DNA of 64,000 nt from Rudanella paleaurantiibacter (GTDB lineage Bacteria > Bacteroidota > Bacteroidia > Cytophagales > Spirosomataceae). This document shows positions 4,499 to 13,353 of the stretch, one piece after another. Within the stretch, counting starts at the first letter, position 1. The number at the start of each line of letters is the position of its first letter. The translations under genes were made by a program, and so were the position numbers. The DNA is taken from the NCBI RefSeq assembly GCF_009184635.1, contig NZ_WELI01000013.1:1-64000 (forward strand). Reading direction: 5' to 3'. The notes beneath the pieces are model-generated. The model did no database searches and was not told the origin of the DNA. It worked only from the letters and a program-made list of their open reading frames with translations.

Positions 4499-6487
4499 TT
4501 ACTTTTTAGCGACTTTTTCGGCCTCAGGAGCGGCTGTTTTACCCGTACTGAACGTCAGCGGAACATTGCTACCCTTGGCCGACACCCGCACGTATCCCTG
4601 CATTTCCTGGTGCAGTGCCGAGCAGAAATCGGTGCAGTAGATAGGTGTAATGCCCACCCGGCTCGGTACCCACTTGAGCGTCTGCGTTTCGCCGGGCATA
4701 ATCAGGATTTCGGCGTTGTTGCTGCCTTTCACCGCAAAGCCGTGCGGAATATCCCAATCCTGCTCCAGGTTTGTGACGTGGAAATACACCTCGTCGCCCA
4801 GTTTTACGCCCTCGATATTGTCCGGGGTAAAGTGCGAGCGGATGGCCGTAATGTACACGTGTACCTGATTACCCTCACGCACCACTTTGGCTTCTTTCTC
4901 GCCTTTGGCCGCGTATTTGTGGCCGTTCTCCTCAATCTTGAAGATTTTCTTCGAGTTTTTCTCCAGCAAACTCGCCGGGATCGACTCAGCATAGTGCGGT
5001 TCGCCCACGGTGGGGAAGTCGAGCAGGAGCTTCATCTTGTCGCCCGAAATGTCGTACAACTGCGCCGACTGCGTCAGTTCGGGGCCGGTGGGCAGGTAGC
5101 GGTCTTTCGTAATTTTGTTGTAAGCCACTACATATTTGCCGTGCGGCTTGCTGGTTGGCCCACCGGGAATCGACAAGTGACCCACCGAGTAGTACGTTGG
5201 CACGCGGTCCAGCACTTTCAGGTCTTTGATGTTCCATTTCACCAGCTCCGACGATACGAAGAACGAAGTAATGGCGTTGCCCTGTCCGTCAAATTCGGTG
5301 TGCAGTGGCCCAAGGCCCGGCTTTTGTACTTCGCCGTACAGCACGCTTTCGTATTTCAGCACCGGAATCCCATCAAACTCGCCGTCGTAGGTTTTGCCCG
5401 CAATCGCCTTCTGAATTTTGTCGAACGAAAACACCGGAATCACAGCCGCCAGCTTGCCTGAGCCCACAATAAATTCGCCGGTGGGGTCAACATCGCAACC
5501 GTGGGGCGATTTGGGGCATGGCATAAAATACACCAGGCCGGGGCATTCTTTCGGGTCGAGGGTCATCACCTCATTAATGATGGTCGACGTGGCCGAGTGC
5601 GTTTTTTCGTCGTACAGATTGTGGGCGTATTTGGCCGCCACTTTCTTGCCTTTGCCCTGTTTCAGGTATTCTTCGGCCTTTTTCCAGTTTACCGCCAGAA
5701 TAAAGTCTTTGTCTTTCTGCGACGCGTTCACCTCCAGCAGGGTGCTTGCCTGCTCGGTATTGTAGCAGGAGAAGAAGAACCAGCCGTGCGATTTGCCCTT
5801 GCCAGCCCGCGCCAGGTCGAAGCTGATACCCGGCATTTTCAGCTGAAACTTGATACCCATATGACCCGACTGCGGGTCGACGCTGATAAAGCTGATGTAC
5901 CCCTTAAAGTTCTTCTTGAACGAGCTGATGGGCATATCGCCATCATTATCGGGTGGCACCGAAAACCGGGTTGAAGCCACCACGTACTCGGTATTTTCGG
6001 TGATAAACGGCGATGAGTGATTACCGCCCGAGTTGGGGAGTTCGATAATTTCATCGGTACGGAACGTCGACAGGCTGATCCGGGCCACGCGCGGGGTGTT
6101 GTTGGCATTGCCAAAGGCCCACCGGCCATCATGCTCGCCTTTGGTTTGCGAGAGCGAAATGTGGTGTAAATCATCCCACGGAATGTAGCCGTGCGAGGTG
6201 TTCAGCATCGGTTTGGTTTCCTCGCTGTAGCCCCAGCCGTTTTCGGGGAAGGTCGAAAACACGGGAATGATCTTGAACATCCGCCCTGACGGTAACCCAT
6301 ATACGGACATCTGCCCGTTGAACCCGCCCGACACGATGTTGTAAAACTCGTCGTGCTGTCCGGGGGTGACGTAAACTTTCTGGGCGGCATCGCCCGATAC
6401 AGCCGAACCCGCATCTTTGGGCTTACAGCTGGTTAAGTGAAGGCCGAGAGCGGCCAGGGCGGCTACGGCAACAATAGTACGTTTCAT
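4499..6487 (-). CDS. nosZ: Nitrous oxide reductase NosZ, Sec-type lipoprotein (clade II-like)
   Basis: This protein of 662 residues reduces N2O to N2 in the periplasm. The start was set at MKRTIVAVAALAALGLHLTS with a lipobox Cys at 21, and no twin-arginine motif is present. This is the Sec-dependent type typical of clade II NosZ. The beta-propeller includes WDDLHHISLSQTKGEHDGRW, with CuZ-type histidines near 108, 109 and 119. The C-terminal cupredoxin domain has the CuA site CTDFCSALHQEM, with Cys618, Cys622, His626 and Met629. The residue between the cysteines that is Trp in Pseudomonas NosZ is Asp here. A possible upstream in-frame start adds 28 residues with no signal character, so it was not used. 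The gene sits right behind a cytochrome c gene and ahead of nosL, D, F and Y. Confidence 0.97.
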   Translation of the reverse strand: MKRTIVAVAALAALGLHLTSCKPKDAGSAVSGDAAQKVYVTPGQHDEFYNIVSGGFNGQMSVYGLPSGRMFKIIPVFSTFPENGWGYSEETKPMLNTSHGYIPWDDLHHISLSQTKGEHDGRWAFGNANNTPRVARISLSTFRTDEIIELPNSGGNHSSPFITENTEYVVASTRFSVPPDNDGDMPISSFKKNFKGYISFISVDPQSGHMGIKFQLKMPGISFDLARAGKGKSHGWFFFSCYNTEQASTLLEVNASQKDKDFILAVNWKKAEEYLKQGKGKKVAAKYAHNLYDEKTHSATSTIINEVMTLDPKECPGLVYFMPCPKSPHGCDVDPTGEFIVGSGKLAAVIPVFSFDKIQKAIAGKTYDGEFDGIPVLKYESVLYGEVQKPGLGPLHTEFDGQGNAITSFFVSSELVKWNIKDLKVLDRVPTYYSVGHLSIPGGPTSKPHGKYVVAYNKITKDRYLPTGPELTQSAQLYDISGDKMKLLLDFPTVGEPHYAESIPASLLEKNSKKIFKIEENGHKYAAKGEKEAKVVREGNQVHVYITAIRSHFTPDNIEGVKLGDEVYFHVTNLEQDWDIPHGFAVKGSNNAEILIMPGETQTLKWVPSRVGITPIYCTDFCSALHQEMQGYVRVSAKGSNVPLTFSTGKTAAPEAEKVAKK

Positions 6488-6521
6488 TGTCTTGGTCGTT
6501 AGTGGAGGGGGTATCGGTTCG

Positions 6522-7196: not shown

Positions 7197-7946
7197 ATGG
7201 AAACGATTTCTGCATTTAATGCCTCGACTGTTACCGTTGGGCAATTGGTAGCCGACGATATTCGGGCGGCCGAAGTATTCAAACGATTAGGCATTGATTT
7301 TTGCTGCAATGGCAAACGGACCCTTGCCGATGCCTGTGCGCGGGCCGAGGTCTCGGTTGATACCGTGCTCGATAAACTGAGCCAACTCCCCACGGGTAAC
7401 CGCCTGGGCTCCGAACGGTTCGATGAGTGGGAACTGGGCTTTCTGGCCGATTACATCCTCAACGTTCACCACGCGTACCTGTACCAGAACCTCCCGTTTA
7501 TTGAGGAGCTGGTGGTGAAAGTGGCCAATAAACACGGCGTCTACAACCCCACGCTGTTGGTGGTTCGGCAGGTGTTTACCGAACTGAAAGACGACTTGCT
7601 GTCGCACCTGAAAAAAGAAGAAATAGCTCTGTTTCCGTTTATCCGTAAACTCATCAACGGTCAAACAGACCCCTCGGCCGCCTTTGGCGGGCAAGCCGTT
7701 TCGCTCAAAGCACCCATCGATTGTATGGAGCACGAACACAGCTATGCCGGCTCGCTGCTGGCGCAACTCCGCGAAATCACCAACGACTACACGCCCCCGA
7801 CCGACGCCTGCAACTCGCACCGGCTCATGCTGGCAAAAATGGAAGAATTGGAAAACGACCTAATGCGGCACATTCACCTCGAAAACAACATCCTTTTTCC
7901 GAAAGCACTGGCCCTGGAGGGCAACTACAGCCGGGTTGTCGAATAA
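7197..7946 (+). CDS. ric: Di-iron iron-sulfur cluster repair protein RIC (ScdA/YtfE type)
   Basis: This 249-residue protein has the two-domain layout of RIC. An N-terminal ScdA_N (DUF542) segment, TVGQLVADDIRAAEVFKRLG, is followed by the Cys pair FCCNGKRTL (Cys36-Cys37). A hemerythrin-like four-helix domain follows, with HHAYLYQNLP, SHLKKEEIALFPF, MEHEHSYAG and RHIHLENNILFP supplying the di-iron His and Glu ligands. The family repairs Fe-S clusters damaged by NO or peroxide in the cytoplasm. It is divergent from the nos operon and is followed by the Rrf2 regulator, so its context fits a response to NO. The length agrees with E. coli YtfE (220) plus a small insertion. Confidence 0.95.
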   Translation: METISAFNASTVTVGQLVADDIRAAEVFKRLGIDFCCNGKRTLADACARAEVSVDTVLDKLSQLPTGNRLGSERFDEWELGFLADYILNVHHAYLYQNLPFIEELVVKVANKHGVYNPTLLVVRQVFTELKDDLLSHLKKEEIALFPFIRKLINGQTDPSAAFGGQAVSLKAPIDCMEHEHSYAGSLLAQLREITNDYTPPTDACNSHRLMLAKMEELENDLMRHIHLENNILFPKALALEGNYSRVVE

Positions 7947-8042: not shown

Positions 8043-8501
8043 ATGATTTCAAAAACATGTGGCTACGCAATACGCGGGCTGGTGTATCTGGCCCTCAAAA
8101 GCTCGGAACATCACAAAATTGGCATTCATGAGCTTGCGGAAGAGCTGGGCGTACCGCAACCTTTCCTGGGTAAAATTATGCAGGGACTGGTTCGGCGCGA
8201 CATTATCAGCTCCACCAAAGGCCCTAACGGCGGCTTCTACATTAACGACCGAACCCTGCACACGCCTATCATCGACGTGGTAGACGCTATCGACGGGCTC
8301 GGCATGTTTCGGCGGTGTTTTCTGGGTCTTCCCGAATGCGACAGCCATAACCCGTGCCCGCTGCACTCGCATGTGGTCACGTTTCGGGATTCGCTTTATG
8401 ATACCCTCCACGGGTTGAGCGTGGAGGAAATGGTCGAACATGTTCAGCAGGGCGAGTCGGTGCTGAGCCGACTCCCCAAAAGCTTTGGCGAATCGACCTG
8501 A
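8043..8501 (+). CDS. Rrf2-family Fe-S transcriptional regulator, NsrR-like
   Basis: This 152-residue protein has an N-terminal winged helix (SKTCGYAIRGLVYLALKSS, then ELAEELGVPQPFLGKIMQGL and STKGPNGGFYI). Three cysteines, Cys92, Cys99 and Cys105, lie in RRCFLGLPECDSHNPCPLH. In Rrf2 proteins such as NsrR and IscR these carry an Fe-S cluster; spacing here is C-x6-C-x5-C, slightly wider than in E. coli NsrR. NO reacting with the cluster usually lifts repression, so it is a likely sensor for ric, norB and perhaps nos. The start at 8043 was preferred to an upstream ATG at 7986 because family conservation begins at MISKTCGYAIRGL. The gene lies 96 bp behind ric. Confidence 0.9.
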   Translation: MISKTCGYAIRGLVYLALKSSEHHKIGIHELAEELGVPQPFLGKIMQGLVRRDIISSTKGPNGGFYINDRTLHTPIIDVVDAIDGLGMFRRCFLGLPECDSHNPCPLHSHVVTFRDSLYDTLHGLSVEEMVEHVQQGESVLSRLPKSFGEST

Positions 8502-8537: not shown

Positions 8538-9092
8538 ATGAAAACCCCATTCATTACCTTACTCATTACCAGCGCCTTGCTGGGATGCAACACCGAATCG
8601 ACCACACAAAACACAGATACCGGGCAGGAAACGACGGCTACGGTTGCCGGGCAATCGGCCGTACAAGACGACGACTCTCAGAAAGACGTGGTGAAAGTAG
8701 CCGCCGGCTCGCCCGACCACACCACGCTGGTAAAGGCCGTACAAACCGCCGGGCTGGTTGATGCGCTCTCCAATGCCGGGCCGTTTACCGTTTTTGCACC
8801 AACCAACGCGGCCTTCGACGCCCTGCCCGCCGGTACCGTTGATGATTTGCTCAAGCCCGAAAACAAAGAAAAACTGGCCGATATTCTGCAATACCACGTA
8901 TCAGTGGCGGGGTATCCGCTCGAAAACCTCCAGGATGGCCAGAAAATCAATCAGGTCAACGGGGGCGACGCCACCATCAGCGTGAAAGATGGCAAGTACA
9001 AAATCAACGATGCCAACATTGTCGGAACAGTAAAGGCTTCAAACGGCATTGTGCACATCATCGACAAAGTCATTTTGCCCCCGGCCAAGTAG
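8538..9092 (+). CDS. Fasciclin-domain (FAS1) lipoprotein
   Basis: This 184-residue protein starts with a lipoprotein signal peptide MKTPFITLLITSALLGC, then a low-complexity Thr/Gln-rich linker. A single FAS1 domain covers residues 55 to 184: SPDHTTLVKAVQTAGLVDAL, GPFTVFAPTNAAFDALPAG and the C-terminal IVGTVKASNGIVHIIDKVIL. FAS1 domains usually act in adhesion or protein-protein contacts at the cell surface. The gene starts 36 bp after the Rrf2 regulator and 45 bp before the next gene, so it probably belongs to the same transcription unit. Why a FAS1 lipoprotein would be made with NO-stress genes is not clear; a role in the envelope under nitrosative stress is only a guess. Confidence 0.92.
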   Translation: MKTPFITLLITSALLGCNTESTTQNTDTGQETTATVAGQSAVQDDDSQKDVVKVAAGSPDHTTLVKAVQTAGLVDALSNAGPFTVFAPTNAAFDALPAGTVDDLLKPENKEKLADILQYHVSVAGYPLENLQDGQKINQVNGGDATISVKDGKYKINDANIVGTVKASNGIVHIIDKVILPPAK

Positions 9093-9137: not shown

Positions 9138-10925
9138 ATGACAATTCCAGTACACCGGTTTCACATACCGGTTATGGGGCTGGCGTTTACCGTCGATACA
9201 CCGATTAAAGTTGCTCGATTCGGTATTTCGTCAGTGATGTCCATTATCGAAGACCGGCTGCTCGAAACCATGCGGCAGTATTATTATGGCCAGTTGAAGG
9301 AGCCGTATATCCCGATCAGCGACCGCGAAGATGACTACCGGGCCCGCCGGGTTACGGATTACCTTAATCTGGTCGACCGACTGGTGCAGGACGGGGTCAA
9401 TACCCTCAAACAAGCCGCATTCGATGCCGGCTCGGAGCTGGTGCGGTATTTTGAGATGCTCCCCGACGATAGTTTTCTCAAGAGCCAGTACCGGCAAATG
9501 CTGCAACTGGAGCCCGGAACGGATAAACACGGATTACAAACGTGGCTTCGGCAGCAGATTCGGCCCGGCAGCATTGATGTCAACATCATGACAAAGGTCG
9601 ACAAGAACAATGTCGACGCGTCGGGGGCAGTGCGCGAAAATGGCTCCGATGCCGTGACGGCCCTGCGCGGGTACGCCAACAGCACACTTACCAACTCGTC
9701 GGTTATTTTTTCGGCTGGCCTGAATCCGCGTCTGTTCAACTACCTCGAATCACTGCCAGCCTTTGAAGCCACGGGTTTGGGTGAGTTTCCGAAAAAAGTG
9801 GTCATTAAAGTGAGCGATTACCGTTCGGCGCTGATTCAGGGAAAGTACCTCGCCAAAAAAGGAATCTGGGTGAGCGAGTTCCGCATTGAATCGGGGCTGA
9901 ACTGCGGAGGGCACGCCTTTGCTACCGACGGCTTTTTGCTCGGTCCTATTCTGGCCGAGTTCAAAGCCCGCAAAGCCGAACTGACCGACGCTCTGTTTGG
10001 GCTGTACACACAGGCGTTGACCCAAAAAGGAAAACAGACCTTTGCGGAGCCGCACCCGCTCCGAATAACCGTGCAGGGGGGTATCGGCACACCAGCCGAG
10101 GCCGACCTCCTGCACCGGCTTTACGACGTGGACAGTACCGGTTGGGGTACGCCTTTTCTGCTGGTGCCCGAAGCGACTACCGTAGACGAACCCACGTTGA
10201 ACAGACTGTGTGGGGCCCGCGAAACCGACGTAGTGCTGAGCAAAGCCTCGCCCCTGGGAGTTCGGTTTTATTACCTCAAAGGCACCAGTTCGGAACGGGA
10301 AAAGCTGGCCCGTATCGGTCGGGGTAAACCCGGCAGCCCGTGCACCGAAAAACACCTGATTACAAACACCGAGTTTACGGAGCAGCCCATCTGCATGGCC
10401 TCGCGTGTGTATCAGAAGCAAAAACTCGCGCAACTGGCTACCCTCAACCTCAACCCGGATGCATACCAAAAACAAGCCGCCGACGTGCTCGAAAAAGAAT
10501 GTCTGTGTGTGGGTTTGAGCAACTCCGTGACGCACGTATATGGTACACCGTTCGTAAAAAATCGGTCGAGTGTCACGATTTGCCCCGGCCCCAACATTGC
10601 CTATTTTTCGCGGGTGGTTTCGTTGCAGACCATGACCGACCACATTTACGGGCGTACAGACCTGATTTCGGACCGCAACCGGCCGCATATGTTTCTGAAC
10701 GAACTGACGCAGTACCTCAACTACCTGGCCGAGCAATTGAACGAACTACGGCCGGAAGACACCAAACGGGCAACGTACTGCCGCGAGTTCGCTAAAAATC
10801 TGGCCGAGGGCATTGCGTACTACAGCCATCTGGCCGACGAGTTACCATCGCCCTCCGACCGGGATGCCTTTGCCCTCGGATTAGCCGATGCCCAACAACG
10901 ACTACACTCCTTAACGATCCGTTGA
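9138..10925 (+). CDS. Unrecognised 595-residue protein with nitronate-monooxygenase-like motifs and a Cys cluster
   Basis: I do not recognise this as a named family. It has no signal peptide and looks cytoplasmic. Three spaced segments recall FMN-dependent TIM barrels of the nitronate monooxygenase / FabK type: an opening PVMGLAFTVDTPIKVARFG (11-29), ESGLNCGGHAF (251-261) resembling the EAGGH segment with its catalytic His, and TVQGGIGTPAEADLL (311-325) with GWGTPF (335-340), resembling the phosphate-binding GGI...GT-FL segment. A second half holds Cys402, Cys419, Cys455, Cys457 and Cys482 (in KECLCVGL and TICPGPN), which could bind an Fe-S cluster or metal. It lies 45 bp behind the fasciclin gene and just before a terminator and norB. 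A role in NO or nitro-compound metabolism is inference from motifs and context. Confidence 0.6.
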   Translation: MTIPVHRFHIPVMGLAFTVDTPIKVARFGISSVMSIIEDRLLETMRQYYYGQLKEPYIPISDREDDYRARRVTDYLNLVDRLVQDGVNTLKQAAFDAGSELVRYFEMLPDDSFLKSQYRQMLQLEPGTDKHGLQTWLRQQIRPGSIDVNIMTKVDKNNVDASGAVRENGSDAVTALRGYANSTLTNSSVIFSAGLNPRLFNYLESLPAFEATGLGEFPKKVVIKVSDYRSALIQGKYLAKKGIWVSEFRIESGLNCGGHAFATDGFLLGPILAEFKARKAELTDALFGLYTQALTQKGKQTFAEPHPLRITVQGGIGTPAEADLLHRLYDVDSTGWGTPFLLVPEATTVDEPTLNRLCGARETDVVLSKASPLGVRFYYLKGTSSEREKLARIGRGKPGSPCTEKHLITNTEFTEQPICMASRVYQKQKLAQLATLNLNPDAYQKQAADVLEKECLCVGLSNSVTHVYGTPFVKNRSSVTICPGPNIAYFSRVVSLQTMTDHIYGRTDLISDRNRPHMFLNELTQYLNYLAEQLNELRPEDTKRATYCREFAKNLAEGIAYYSHLADELPSPSDRDAFALGLADAQQRLHSLTIR

Positions 10926-10930
10926 CCATT

Positions 10931-10985
10931 CCCTGAGCAGAGTCAGGCAAACGCCTGATAAATACCCTATCTGCTCAGGGCTTTT
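10931..10985 (+). terminator. Rho-independent terminator after the ric-regulator-FAS1-595aa unit
   Basis: An 11-bp perfect stem CCCTGAGCAGA / TCTGCTCAGGG (10931-10941 and 10970-10980) encloses a second small hairpin (TCAGGC/GCCTGA, 10943-10958) and is followed by CTTTTT. It starts 5 bp after the stop codon. It separates norB from the upstream unit, so norB needs its own promoter. Confidence 0.85.
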
Positions 10986-10998
10986 TCGGTCAGATTTG

Positions 10999-11040: not shown

Positions 11041-13353
11041 ATGCAGTATCGAAAATTATGGTGGGGGTTCATTCTGGTCATGGTGGGCTCTTTTGCCGTA
11101 CTTGGCTATTTTGGCGCAGAGATTTACCGGCAGGCTCCGCCCATTCCTGATAAAGTAGTGACACCCGACGGCCGGGTTTTATTCACCGGCGAGGATATCC
11201 GCAACGGACAAAACGTGTGGCAGTCGATTGGGGGCCATGCCGTAGGCTCAATCTGGGGGCACGGTGCCTACGTTGCCCCCGACTGGACCGCCGACTGGCT
11301 GCACCGTGAAGCCACGTACATTCTGGACAGCTGGGCGCAGGTAGCCAAAGGCAAACCATTTGCCGCAGCCGATGCCGAAACACAGGCCGCCCTCAAAATA
11401 CGCTTACAGCAGTTGCTCCGCAAAAACACTTTTAACCAGCCAACGGCCACCCTCACGGTTGCCGGGGTTCGGGCAGAGGCCGTATCCGCAAACAGCCAGT
11501 ATTATACCGGACTGTTTATGAACGACAAGGCGTTGGCCAGTCATCGGGATGCGTACGCAATACCGGAAAACAGTGTGAAAGACCCCGCCCGGATGCGGCA
11601 GCTCAACGCCTTTTTCTTCTGGGCGTCGTGGGCCTGTGTTACGCAGCGTCCGAACGAAACCATTAGCTACACCAACAACTGGCCATCGGAAGAACTGGTT
11701 GGCAACAAGCCAAGCACCGATCTCGTATTCTGGACCGGCTTCAGCGTAATTGTTCTTCTGGCGGGCATTGGTTTACTGGTATGGCACCATGCCTCCACGC
11801 CCGAAGACACCCTGGAACCGGGTTTTCTGCCCAAACGAGACCCGCTTCTGGGCCTTGTTGCGACGCCATCTATGCGGGCCACCGAGAAATACTTCTGGAT
11901 TGTGACAGCCCTACTGGTGGTGCAGGTGGGCCTTGGCGGTATAACGGCGCACTTCGGCGTTGAGGGGCAAGGGTTCTTTGGGTTTCCGCTTGCGGAGTAC
12001 CTCCCCTACGCTGTTTCGCGCAGCTGGCACGTACAACTGGCTATTTTCTGGATTGCTACCTCGTGGCTGGCTACAGGTCTGTTTATTGCCCCGGCCGTAT
12101 CGGGGGTTGAGCCCAAATTCCAACGACTGGGTGTTAATTTTCTGTTCGGTGCCCTGCTGGTCATTGTGGTGGGTTCACTGGCAGGTCAGTGGTTTGGGGT
12201 GATGCAGAAACTGGGGCTGGTTGAGAATTTCTGGTTCGGGCATCAGGGGTACGAATACGTCGATATTGGCCGGTTCTGGCAGATTTTCCTCTTGGTAGGT
12301 TTGTTTCTGTGGCTGTTTCTGATGGGTCGCGCCATCTGGCCTGCGCTCAAACCCGATGCTGACGGACGCCCGGCCGAAAGTCGCCATTTGCTGACGTTGT
12401 TCCTTATTTCGTCTATTGCCATTGCGGCTTTCTACGGCGCGGGACTGATGTGGGGTCGACAAACGAACCTCGCCATTGCCGAATACTGGCGGTGGTGGGT
12501 GGTACACCTCTGGGTTGAAGGCTTTTTCGAGGTATTTGCCACGGTGGTTATCGCGTTCTTGTTTGTGCGACTGGGTTTACTGCGTATTCAGAGTGCCACG
12601 AGTCAGGTGTTGTTTTCAACCATTATCTTTCTCTTTGGGGGGATAATCGGCACCTGCCACCACCTTTATTTTAGCGGTACACCCACCTCTGTGATGGCCC
12701 TCGGTGCTACGTTTAGCGCCCTGGAGGTAGTGCCGCTGGTGCTGCTGGGTTTTGAAGCCTACGCAAATCTCAAAATCAGCCGCTCAACACCCTGGATTCA
12801 GGCGTACAAATGGCCTATTTACTGTTTCGTAGCAGTTGCGTTCTGGAATCTGGTCGGGGCCGGCCTGTTTGGGTTCATCATCAACCCACCGCTTGCCCTG
12901 TACTACATGCAGGGGTTAAACACCACCCCTGTACACGGTCACACGGCACTGTTTGGTGTGTACGGAATTTTGGGAATCGGGCTAATGCTGTTCTCTCTAC
13001 GGGCCATGAACACCCGTTCGGTCTGGAAAGACGGCACTATCCGGTTTGCGTTTTGGTCAATCAATATCGGGTTGGGCCTGATGGTGCTACTGAGTGTACT
13101 GCCCATCGGCCTGTTGCAAACCTGGGCCAGCGTAGAACACGGTCTTTGGTACGCGCGCTCATTGGAGTTTATGCAAACCGACACCATGCAGTTGTTGCGC
13201 TGGTTGCGGGTAGTGGGCGATACCGTTTTTGCGGCCGGTGTGCTGGCGTTGGCCTGGTTTATCATTGGCCTGAAAACGGGCCGGTCTTTGGTGCCAACCG
13301 CACCCAATCGTCGGCCTACGCCCGACTATGAACTGGCCGATGCCGAGGTATAG
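11041..13353 (+). CDS. norB: Quinol-dependent nitric oxide reductase (qNorB)
   Basis: This 770-residue membrane protein reduces 2 NO to N2O with electrons from quinol. It has a first membrane span (WWGFILVMVGSFAVLGYFG) and then a long periplasmic N-terminal region with GQNVWQSIGGHAVGSIWGHG, the fused NorC-like domain of qNor that lacks a haem c motif. A haem-copper oxidase-like core of about 13 spans follows, with metal-binding His residues in SWHVQLAIFWI, HLWVEGFFEVFAT, GTCHHLYFSGT and PVHGHTALFGVYG. The Glu in WVEGFFE is typical of NO reductases. The start was set at ATG 11041, not the in-frame TTG at 10996, because the TTG falls inside the shared upstream motif. A terminator follows directly. 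Confidence 0.97.
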   Translation: MQYRKLWWGFILVMVGSFAVLGYFGAEIYRQAPPIPDKVVTPDGRVLFTGEDIRNGQNVWQSIGGHAVGSIWGHGAYVAPDWTADWLHREATYILDSWAQVAKGKPFAAADAETQAALKIRLQQLLRKNTFNQPTATLTVAGVRAEAVSANSQYYTGLFMNDKALASHRDAYAIPENSVKDPARMRQLNAFFFWASWACVTQRPNETISYTNNWPSEELVGNKPSTDLVFWTGFSVIVLLAGIGLLVWHHASTPEDTLEPGFLPKRDPLLGLVATPSMRATEKYFWIVTALLVVQVGLGGITAHFGVEGQGFFGFPLAEYLPYAVSRSWHVQLAIFWIATSWLATGLFIAPAVSGVEPKFQRLGVNFLFGALLVIVVGSLAGQWFGVMQKLGLVENFWFGHQGYEYVDIGRFWQIFLLVGLFLWLFLMGRAIWPALKPDADGRPAESRHLLTLFLISSIAIAAFYGAGLMWGRQTNLAIAEYWRWWVVHLWVEGFFEVFATVVIAFLFVRLGLLRIQSATSQVLFSTIIFLFGGIIGTCHHLYFSGTPTSVMALGATFSALEVVPLVLLGFEAYANLKISRSTPWIQAYKWPIYCFVAVAFWNLVGAGLFGFIINPPLALYYMQGLNTTPVHGHTALFGVYGILGIGLMLFSLRAMNTRSVWKDGTIRFAFWSINIGLGLMVLLSVLPIGLLQTWASVEHGLWYARSLEFMQTDTMQLLRWLRVVGDTVFAAGVLALAWFIIGLKTGRSLVPTAPNRRPTPDYELADAEV

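Follow-up and report, generated by a model that had tools for sequence, protein, structure and literature searches.

What does a cysteine-rich protein of 595 residues do among genes for handling nitric oxide (NO) in Rudanella paleaurantiibacter? Its gene lies at positions 9138 to 10925, forward strand, of the window analyzed here, a stretch of 64,000 nucleotides (contig NZ_WELI01000013.1, positions 1 to 64,000, assembly GCF_009184635.1). The open reading frame (ORF) is intact, with no internal stop, and a genome search matched the gene at a single place. An original prediction, made from the sequence alone, had proposed an enzyme resembling nitronate monooxygenase (NMO) and acting on a nitro compound or nitrosative product, or else a metal-binding regulator. 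Based on the ORF, a structure model, Foldseek, and matches across the phylum, we describe the product as a FabX/NMO-like protein with a predicted triosephosphate isomerase (TIM) barrel and an extra, cysteine-bearing C-terminal half. Computation gave us the gene, its family, their fold and homology, the invariant residues, and the gene linkage set out below. Our preferred interpretation, to which we assign a probability of roughly 50%, is a FabX-like acyl dehydrogenase/isomerase that needs no oxygen and serves during denitrification or hypoxia.

The protein belongs to an unnamed family without a Pfam or NCBIfam model, and we recognized no description of it in the open-licence literature searched. 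The 595-residue sequence matched no Pfam and no NCBIfam family at E ≤ 1, a sequence search of the PDB returned nothing meaningful, and Pfam and PDB searches with a family alignment (A1) returned nothing relevant. When 12 members were searched at E ≤ 10, the NMO family PF03060 was not among the 11 Pfam families found. Weak matches to apolipoprotein and RNA-polymerase families were set aside as chance similarity between helical stretches. Members were present in 142 of 395 genomes sampled from the phylum, which we take to be Bacteroidota judging by the named homologues (one as a fragment), and in 12 of 59 relatives of the window genome. In a pattern scan of genome contigs, 578 of 593 pattern hits were confirmed among the matches listed, and the best 80 loci included metagenome-assembled genomes (MAGs) labelled Omnitrophota, Ignavibacteriae, and Syntrophobacteraceae. 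One genome carried a broken second copy beside its intact one, seen as two partial matches, one of them with two internal stops (G151:C1:4371167-4372137).

Conservation was assessed over 141 copies including that of the window (138 distinct sequences). Invariant in all 141 were N149, E251, N255 to H259 (including C256), G314, G315, G317, G335, W336, C402, C419, C455, C457, C482, and N486. These include six cysteines: C256 and five in the second half of the protein. Because the patterns IDVNIM and ESGLNCGG were used to pick 80 of the loci, the invariance of those stretches, Cys256 included, is partly selected; the other 61 copies were not pattern-selected.

A structure model built from 122 aligned sequences (alignment A2) reached a mean predicted local distance difference test score (pLDDT) of 96.1 and a predicted template modeling score of 0.94. 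It superseded an earlier model from 12 sequences (pLDDT 76), which had already pointed to PfaD. Strands 8–10, 31–35, 146–151, 187–192, 219–225, 245–251, 309–313, and 333–335 of the model form the eight strands of a TIM barrel in order, with a helical insertion at about 37–145 and a helical, cysteine-bearing C-terminal half after about residue 384. The motifs PVMGLAFT (11–18), NCGGHA (255–260), GGIGTPAEAD (314–323), and GWGTPF (335–340), singled out by the original prediction, lie where strands 1, 6, 7, and 8 of the predicted barrel reach their C-terminal ends. Its idea of a barrel of the type that binds flavin mononucleotide (FMN), with motifs spread over about 340 residues, was borne out by the model and by Foldseek, and the spread is due to insertions.

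All 24 Foldseek matches to the PDB at E ≤ 0.001 fell within the NMO/enoyl-reductase group. They comprised FabX, PfaD and enoyl reductases of trans-acyltransferase (trans-AT) polyketide synthases (PKS), NMOs, the quinone reductase PA1024, FabK, and chains of fungal and mycobacterial fatty acid synthases; these synthase chains presumably matched by way of their enoyl-reductase domain. The top match was FabX of Helicobacter pylori (E 2.1e-10), with a template modeling (TM) score of 0.65 by target length; FabX is an FMN/[4Fe-4S] enzyme that acts in making unsaturated fatty acids. TM scores by query length were only 0.25–0.42 and root-mean-square deviations were large, as expected if the insertion and the C-terminus have no counterpart. 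A viral structure library gave one match at E ≤ 0.001, an NMO-like protein. By this model, the protein is a TIM barrel of the FMN-type NMO/enoyl-reductase superfamily.

Profile comparisons with hhalign placed the family within that superfamily more precisely. We compared it with 14 plain NMO/FabK-like proteins (A3), 12 cysteine-bearing FabX-like proteins (A4), five FabX proteins (A5), and 10 FabX plus A4-type sequences (A6). The A4 sequences, of about 420 residues with cysteines in the C-terminal region, came from a search of 118 phylum genomes for NMO-type genes, and the A5 proteins from a search of 395 phylum genomes with A4. FabX chains were the nearest PDB sequences of one A4 member (E 3e-28) and one A5 member (E 3e-71). 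Against A4, the family matched over about 290 columns with E 5e-6 (A2) and 6.6e-6 (A1), in an alignment running through AGLNxR, GGH, and GGI to K-x-C-L-C-x-G. The match to A5 alone was weak (E 0.009), while A6 gave E 2.4e-7. Controls comprising 3 reversed and 45 column-permuted versions of A3, A4, and A6 (none of A5) gave E 0.049 to 0.76. Against plain NMOs, the comparison fell short of significance (E 0.21 with A2, 0.074 with A1), and we therefore rejected the reading of the protein as an NMO. Sequence homology to the superfamily was thus reached through FabX-like profiles alone, not plain NMOs. Taken at the level of sequence profiles, the family is homologous to the NMO/enoyl-reductase superfamily, and its nearest relatives among the groups compared are the cysteine-bearing FabX-like branch. 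It represents a known kind of enzyme that has diverged deeply, rather than a new one. The PfaD model TIGR02814 had no match above cut-off in 61 genomes.

FabX offers a template for reading the active site. Its FMN is described as held by N99, E175, Q240, T243, and glycines and touched by F339-T340-G341, with His182 as the catalytic residue and a [4Fe-4S] cluster bound via C300, C304, C308, and C320; the small C-terminal domain carrying these cysteines stands in place of the NAD(P)H site of FabK (PMC8626469). Residues were matched in a MAFFT joint alignment of the family with FabX-like proteins, beside the hhalign pairings; all coordinates below are on the forward strand. The invariant N149 (9582–9584) corresponds to the conserved barrel Asn of FabX-like proteins, N99 in FabX. 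After strand 6, ESGLNCGGH (residues 251–259; 9888–9914) contains two glycines, Cys256, and the candidate catalytic His259, which is present in 141 of 141 copies within a GGH aligned with that of FabX-like proteins. At the end of strand 7 lies QGGIG (313–317; 10074–10088), which we take to be a glycine motif of the FMN phosphate-binding type; Q313, G314, G315, and G317 are invariant, and G314-G315 align with the FabX-like GG. GWGTPF (335–340; 10140–10157) at strand 8 is the equivalent of the G(T/S)RF of its relatives, with G335, W336, and F340 invariant, T/S338 and F340 aligned with the T and F of FabX-like proteins, and G335 occupying a Gln position of those proteins. Its GTPF resembles the NMO G(T/S)RF. 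Of the FabX residues that hold FMN, N99 and T243 are thus matched by N149 and T/S338, whereas E251 lies one residue off E175 and Gly335 replaces Q240. Beside GGH, Cys256 aligns where FabX has S179 and the five A5 proteins have Ala.

Five invariant cysteines lie C-terminal to the barrel. Cys419 (10392–10394) was paired with A4 C332, and Cys455-Leu-Cys457 (10500–10508) with the A4 CLC (358, 360), by both hhalign and MAFFT; Cys402 (10341–10343) was paired with A4 C319 by hhalign, not MAFFT. Three cysteines were thus paired by two methods and one by a single method, and Cys455 also fell opposite a FabX cysteine in the MAFFT joint alignment. The FabX cluster motif C-x3-C-x3-C-x11-C was absent, the family having C402-x16-C419-x35-C455-x-C457. 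The fifth cysteine opens C482-P-G-P-N486 (10581–10595; C482 and N486 invariant), which aligns with FabX F-x-G-x-N in the joint alignment. Since F339-T340-G341 of FabX contact FMN, Cys482 may sit near the flavin. The five cysteines of the second half (402, 419, 455, 457, 482), noted as conserved-looking by the original prediction, proved invariant throughout and resemble an iron-sulfur (Fe-S) site. The first four may be cluster ligands, and Cys256 and Cys482 may lie beside the flavin.

The family shares with FabX (HP0773 of H. pylori; homologue NGO1024/npd) an FMN-type barrel, for which FabX is the best PDB match, as well as the GGH, the barrel Asn, a candidate cysteine site C-terminal to the barrel, and a G-x-N motif predicted to lie near the flavin. 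It differs from FabX in having no Pfam, NCBIfam, or phmmer link to it, in its length (595 versus 363 residues), in the long helical insertion at about 37–145 and the helical C-terminus, in cysteine spacing, and in the extra Cys256 and Cys482. Proteins of the A4 type (about 420 residues, genome families f36 and f34) have a significant profile match to the family and four cysteines in the same order (C-x12-C-x25-C-x-C versus C-x16-C-x35-C-x-C), but match Pfam NMO and have two more cysteines (C368, C371). Within the A4 set itself (L217-L229, L235-L244, L250, L251), seven cysteines were invariant and an eighth was present in 11 of 12. A4-type genes occurred in 83 of the 395 phylum genomes (81 in f36, 2 in f34; one a fragment), never with the studied family, and the family was absent from all 88 of the genomes with A4-type or FabX-like matches. 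This mutual exclusion is weak evidence because 81 of the 88 genomes belong to one genome family.

More distant systems share less. PfaD, the trans-AT PKS enoyl reductases, and FabK have the fold and the GGH with its catalytic His in common with the family; to our knowledge, they have neither a cysteine site of this kind nor a link to denitrification. They are reductases using NAD(P)H. Nitronate monooxygenases (PF03060) share the superfamily fold and the GGH of motif III, whereas they differ in that the family has no Pfam match and no significant profile match to them, an unrecognizable motif I, and no motif II His. NMO motif I is given as APMxG and motif II as [VI]SFHF, with its His near FMN (PMC13311796); the family has IPVMGLAF and VIFSAGLNP in these places, with FSAG(L/M)NP lacking the His.

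We then considered the setting of the gene. In the window it is the fourth in a series of forward-strand genes, with gaps of 96, 36, and 45 bp between the four in turn. They encode a ric/ytfE-type Fe-S repair di-iron protein (7197–7946; TIGR03652, 231 bits against a cut-off of 204.7), an Rrf2-family regulator (8043–8501, start taken at the ATG at 8043; PF02082, E 5e-22), a fasciclin-domain protein (8538–9092; PF02469, E 3.5e-35), and the 595-residue protein. A nos cluster lies just upstream in the opposite direction, where NosZ, the nitrous oxide (N2O) reductase (4499–6493, reverse strand; PF18764, E 6e-34), a cytochrome c, and NosL were tested. Downstream, norB encodes a quinol-type NO reductase, qNor (11041–13353, forward strand; PF22085, E 4e-70, and PF00115, E 3e-58, scanned from 11038), its ATG 115 bp beyond the 595-residue gene. 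Between the two, at 10931–10980 on the forward strand, inverted-repeat and folding analysis revealed an intrinsic-terminator-like hairpin followed by CTTTTTC, with an 11-bp perfect inverted repeat as outer pairs and an inner stem. The stretch 10920–10995 folds at −36 kcal/mol (z −6.47), and none of 200 shuffles folded as strongly. A simple terminator scan, covering short loops only, did not list this hairpin, and matches in a promoter and terminator scan of the locus were no more frequent than in shuffles. Because of the strong hairpin, norB is probably a separate transcription unit, and the unit from ric to the 595-residue gene probably ends there. The original prediction named the neighbors correctly but left out the fasciclin gene. 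Locus L032 also has a fasciclin relative (neighbor cluster 27), three genes upstream of its family gene.

Across the 395 phylum genomes, counted without phylogenetic correction, nosZ and the family occurred together in 68, the family alone in 74, nosZ alone in 61, and neither in 192 (odds ratio 2.9, p 2e-6). For ric, counted above cut-off and with 136 of 137 genomes typed, the corresponding numbers were 91, 51, 45, and 208 (odds ratio 8.2, p 3e-20); among the 266 nosZ-negative genomes they were 33, 41, 14, and 178. Within 20 kb of the family gene, nosZ was found in 20 of 68 genomes, in five genome families, and ric in 24 of 91, including 16 within 2 kb (15 in genome family f42, one the window genome). 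As a control, plain NMO genes lay within 20 kb of ric in 0 of 27 cases and of nosZ in 0 of 22. The family is therefore linked to nosZ and ric well above the control.

To this we added 99 neighborhoods besides the window (79 of the 80 contig-scan loci, L062 being dropped because ORF calling missed the gene there, and 20 chosen mostly by genus) with flanks reaching at most 10 kb. Of the 99, 27 contained a nos, qNor, ric, norC-like, or nirK-like gene. Because the other 72 had none, we call the tie to NO genes enriched, not universal. The neighborhood with ric, Rrf2, and nor or nos genes, whose conservation the original prediction proposed to check, is kept in part of the homologues. The norC-like protein matched only as a c-type cytochrome in the family scan, and NosY-like and NnrS-like neighbors had no family match in the scan. 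We dropped from the NO count a cluster of heme-copper subunits (447–468 residues) that had initially been taken for norB; it includes, besides these, subunits of 708–714 residues near ccoP/ccoG-like genes.

Among 100 loci including the window, 68 had a same-strand partner. Partners in these directly adjacent runs included Rrf2 (8), a PNPOx-like protein (8, each time immediately upstream), ric (6), qNor (5), ferredoxin (5), a U32-family protein (5), hemN (4), and NadA-NadB (2). Family tests covered one representative each of hemN, NadA, NadB, ferredoxin, U32, DGC, PTPS, and NosD. A same-strand run of U32, a 73-residue ferredoxin, a PNPOx-like gene, and then the family gene was repeated in five loci (L018, L019, L026, L030, L053), where the ferredoxin may be the electron partner of the family protein. 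In two Omnitrophota MAG contigs, biotin synthase and a pair of 2-oxoacid:ferredoxin oxidoreductase genes are oriented divergently from the family gene (tested in L088, by resemblance in L082). Four loci (L072, L073, L080, L086) lie near genes sharing clusters with the ccoP-like gene of L032, whose member alone was tested. These neighbors suggest a cbb3-type oxidase and a low-oxygen setting. HemN is an oxygen-independent heme enzyme, and we count the oxygen-independent or electron-carrying partners hemN (4 loci), ferredoxin (5), and U32 (5) in favor of a FabX-like acyl dehydrogenase/isomerase. The common thread of the family looks to be scarce or absent oxygen more than NO as such.

The fatty acid genes of the window genome fit a need for such an enzyme. 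Four matches to PF00487, the oxygen-dependent fatty acid desaturases, were found. There was no FabA above cut-off (one weak match to the model lay below it) and no PF03060 match at E 1e-25, two weak matches lying in frames whose length would also allow other barrel enzymes. As the desaturases depend on oxygen, FabA is below cut-off, and PF03060 is absent at this threshold, the genome has no recognized oxygen-free route to unsaturated fatty acids, FabM, FabN, and FabQ not having been searched. A precedent exists in Neisseria gonorrhoeae, whose FabX homologue NGO1024 is listed with 9.6- and 7.9-fold induction among the genes of the anaerobic stimulon. This stimulon also includes the nitrite reductase gene aniA, which puts the anaerobic induction of the gonococcal homologue alongside nitrite respiration; the discoverers remarked that such behavior was unusual for a nitropropane dioxygenase (PMC3032703). 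According to PMC11300592, NGO1024 was later reported to be required for making unsaturated fatty acids anaerobically, its electron acceptor not being known.

Given the low-oxygen thread, the lack of a recognized oxygen-free route, and the NGO1024 precedent, we prefer a FabX-like acyl dehydrogenase/isomerase with an oxygen-free acceptor. We infer the FMN, the cluster, the substrate, the electron acceptor, and the co-regulation as follows. The protein would bind FMN in its barrel and a [4Fe-4S] cluster via four of the C-terminal cysteines. It would dehydrogenate a saturated acyl-carrier thioester to the 2-enoyl form, His259 taking the proton and FMN the hydride, and then yield a cis-3-enoyl product from which elongation leads to unsaturated fatty acids. 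Electrons would leave through the cluster for ferredoxin or some other acceptor that does not involve oxygen. The gene would be run with the denitrification/NO set because the cell's oxygen-dependent desaturases stop without oxygen.

Several points weigh against this interpretation. The cysteine spacing differs from that of FabX, with Cys402 paired by hhalign alone, and neither E175 nor Q240 of FabX has a counterpart in register. FabX itself is reported to need oxygen as acceptor (PMC8626469). The FMN pocket and cysteine cluster are predictions from alignment, and Cys256 and Cys482, near the predicted flavin and without FabX counterparts, could support other chemistry. No fatty-acid synthesis gene was recognized as a regular neighbor, most neighbors not having been scanned, and a desaturase match was present in 2 of 5 non-Bacteroidota MAG genomes with the family gene (Omnitrophota/Syntrophobacteraceae). 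The proposal does not hang on the Cys402 pairing or the E251 offset.

The most serious rival is an FMN/Fe-S oxidoreductase that has this fold but works in biosynthesis without oxygen on a different substrate, such as an acyl-CoA, a quinone, or a cofactor precursor, or that carries out enoyl reduction instead of dehydrogenation. Fold matches as diverse as FabK, PfaD, NMO, and the quinone reductase PA1024 speak for it, as do the varied partners (NadA/NadB, PNPOx-like, and U32 genes, with BioB and 2-oxoacid:ferredoxin oxidoreductase in an Omnitrophota contig) and the cysteine pair, Cys256 and Cys482, beside the predicted flavin. However, the closest relatives found by both sequence and fold are FabX-like, and most of the C-terminal cysteines are common to A4 proteins; we consider this rival rather unlikely, at clearly less than even odds.

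The setting of the gene would also suit, as the original prediction proposed, an enzyme removing a nitrosative product (a nitronate, nitroalkane, nitro-lipid, or S-nitroso compound), in view of the co-occurrence with ric, the placement of ric and nosZ within 20 kb of the gene, and qNor in five same-strand runs. Yet the NMO profile match is not significant, the motif II His is missing, 72 of 99 neighborhoods hold none of the NO genes counted, and 74 of 142 family-bearing genomes lack nosZ. Of nine genomes queried for ric, two were above cut-off and five, labelled Omnitrophota or Syntrophobacteraceae, had no ric match, being MAGs that may be incomplete or mis-binned. We regard such a detoxification role as improbable. 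Still less credible, to the point of being very improbable, is a redox or NO sensor or regulator with lost catalysis, whose cysteine site would report NO or oxygen. Within the window, an Rrf2 gene belongs to the run; this, the abundance of cysteines, and the fact that we know of no enzyme assay are compatible with such a role, whereas the catalytic-type His and barrel motifs are invariant in 141 copies. The absence of any match to a DNA-binding, sensor, or signalling domain in Pfam and NCBIfam, set beside this enzyme fold, likewise tells against the metal-binding regulator of the original prediction.

The acyl dehydrogenase/isomerase proposal can be carried further, more tentatively and at somewhat under even odds. 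The family would then be a third lineage of FMN/[4Fe-4S] acyl-thioester desaturases beside FabX and the A4 type, with its own cysteine ligands, a flavin-side cysteine pair, and ferredoxin in place of oxygen. Denitrifying and hypoxic Bacteroidota would have in it their missing enzyme for making unsaturated fatty acids without oxygen, switched on with NO/N2O genes.

About a third of the sampled phylum genomes thus carry a family of roughly 600 residues that has had no Pfam or NCBIfam model. If our preferred interpretation is true, the family would enlarge the small set of known FMN/Fe-S fatty-acid enzymes and offer a defined test of the question in print for NGO1024, namely which acceptor replaces oxygen. 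It would also explain how denitrifying members of the phylum keep their membranes fluid without oxygen.

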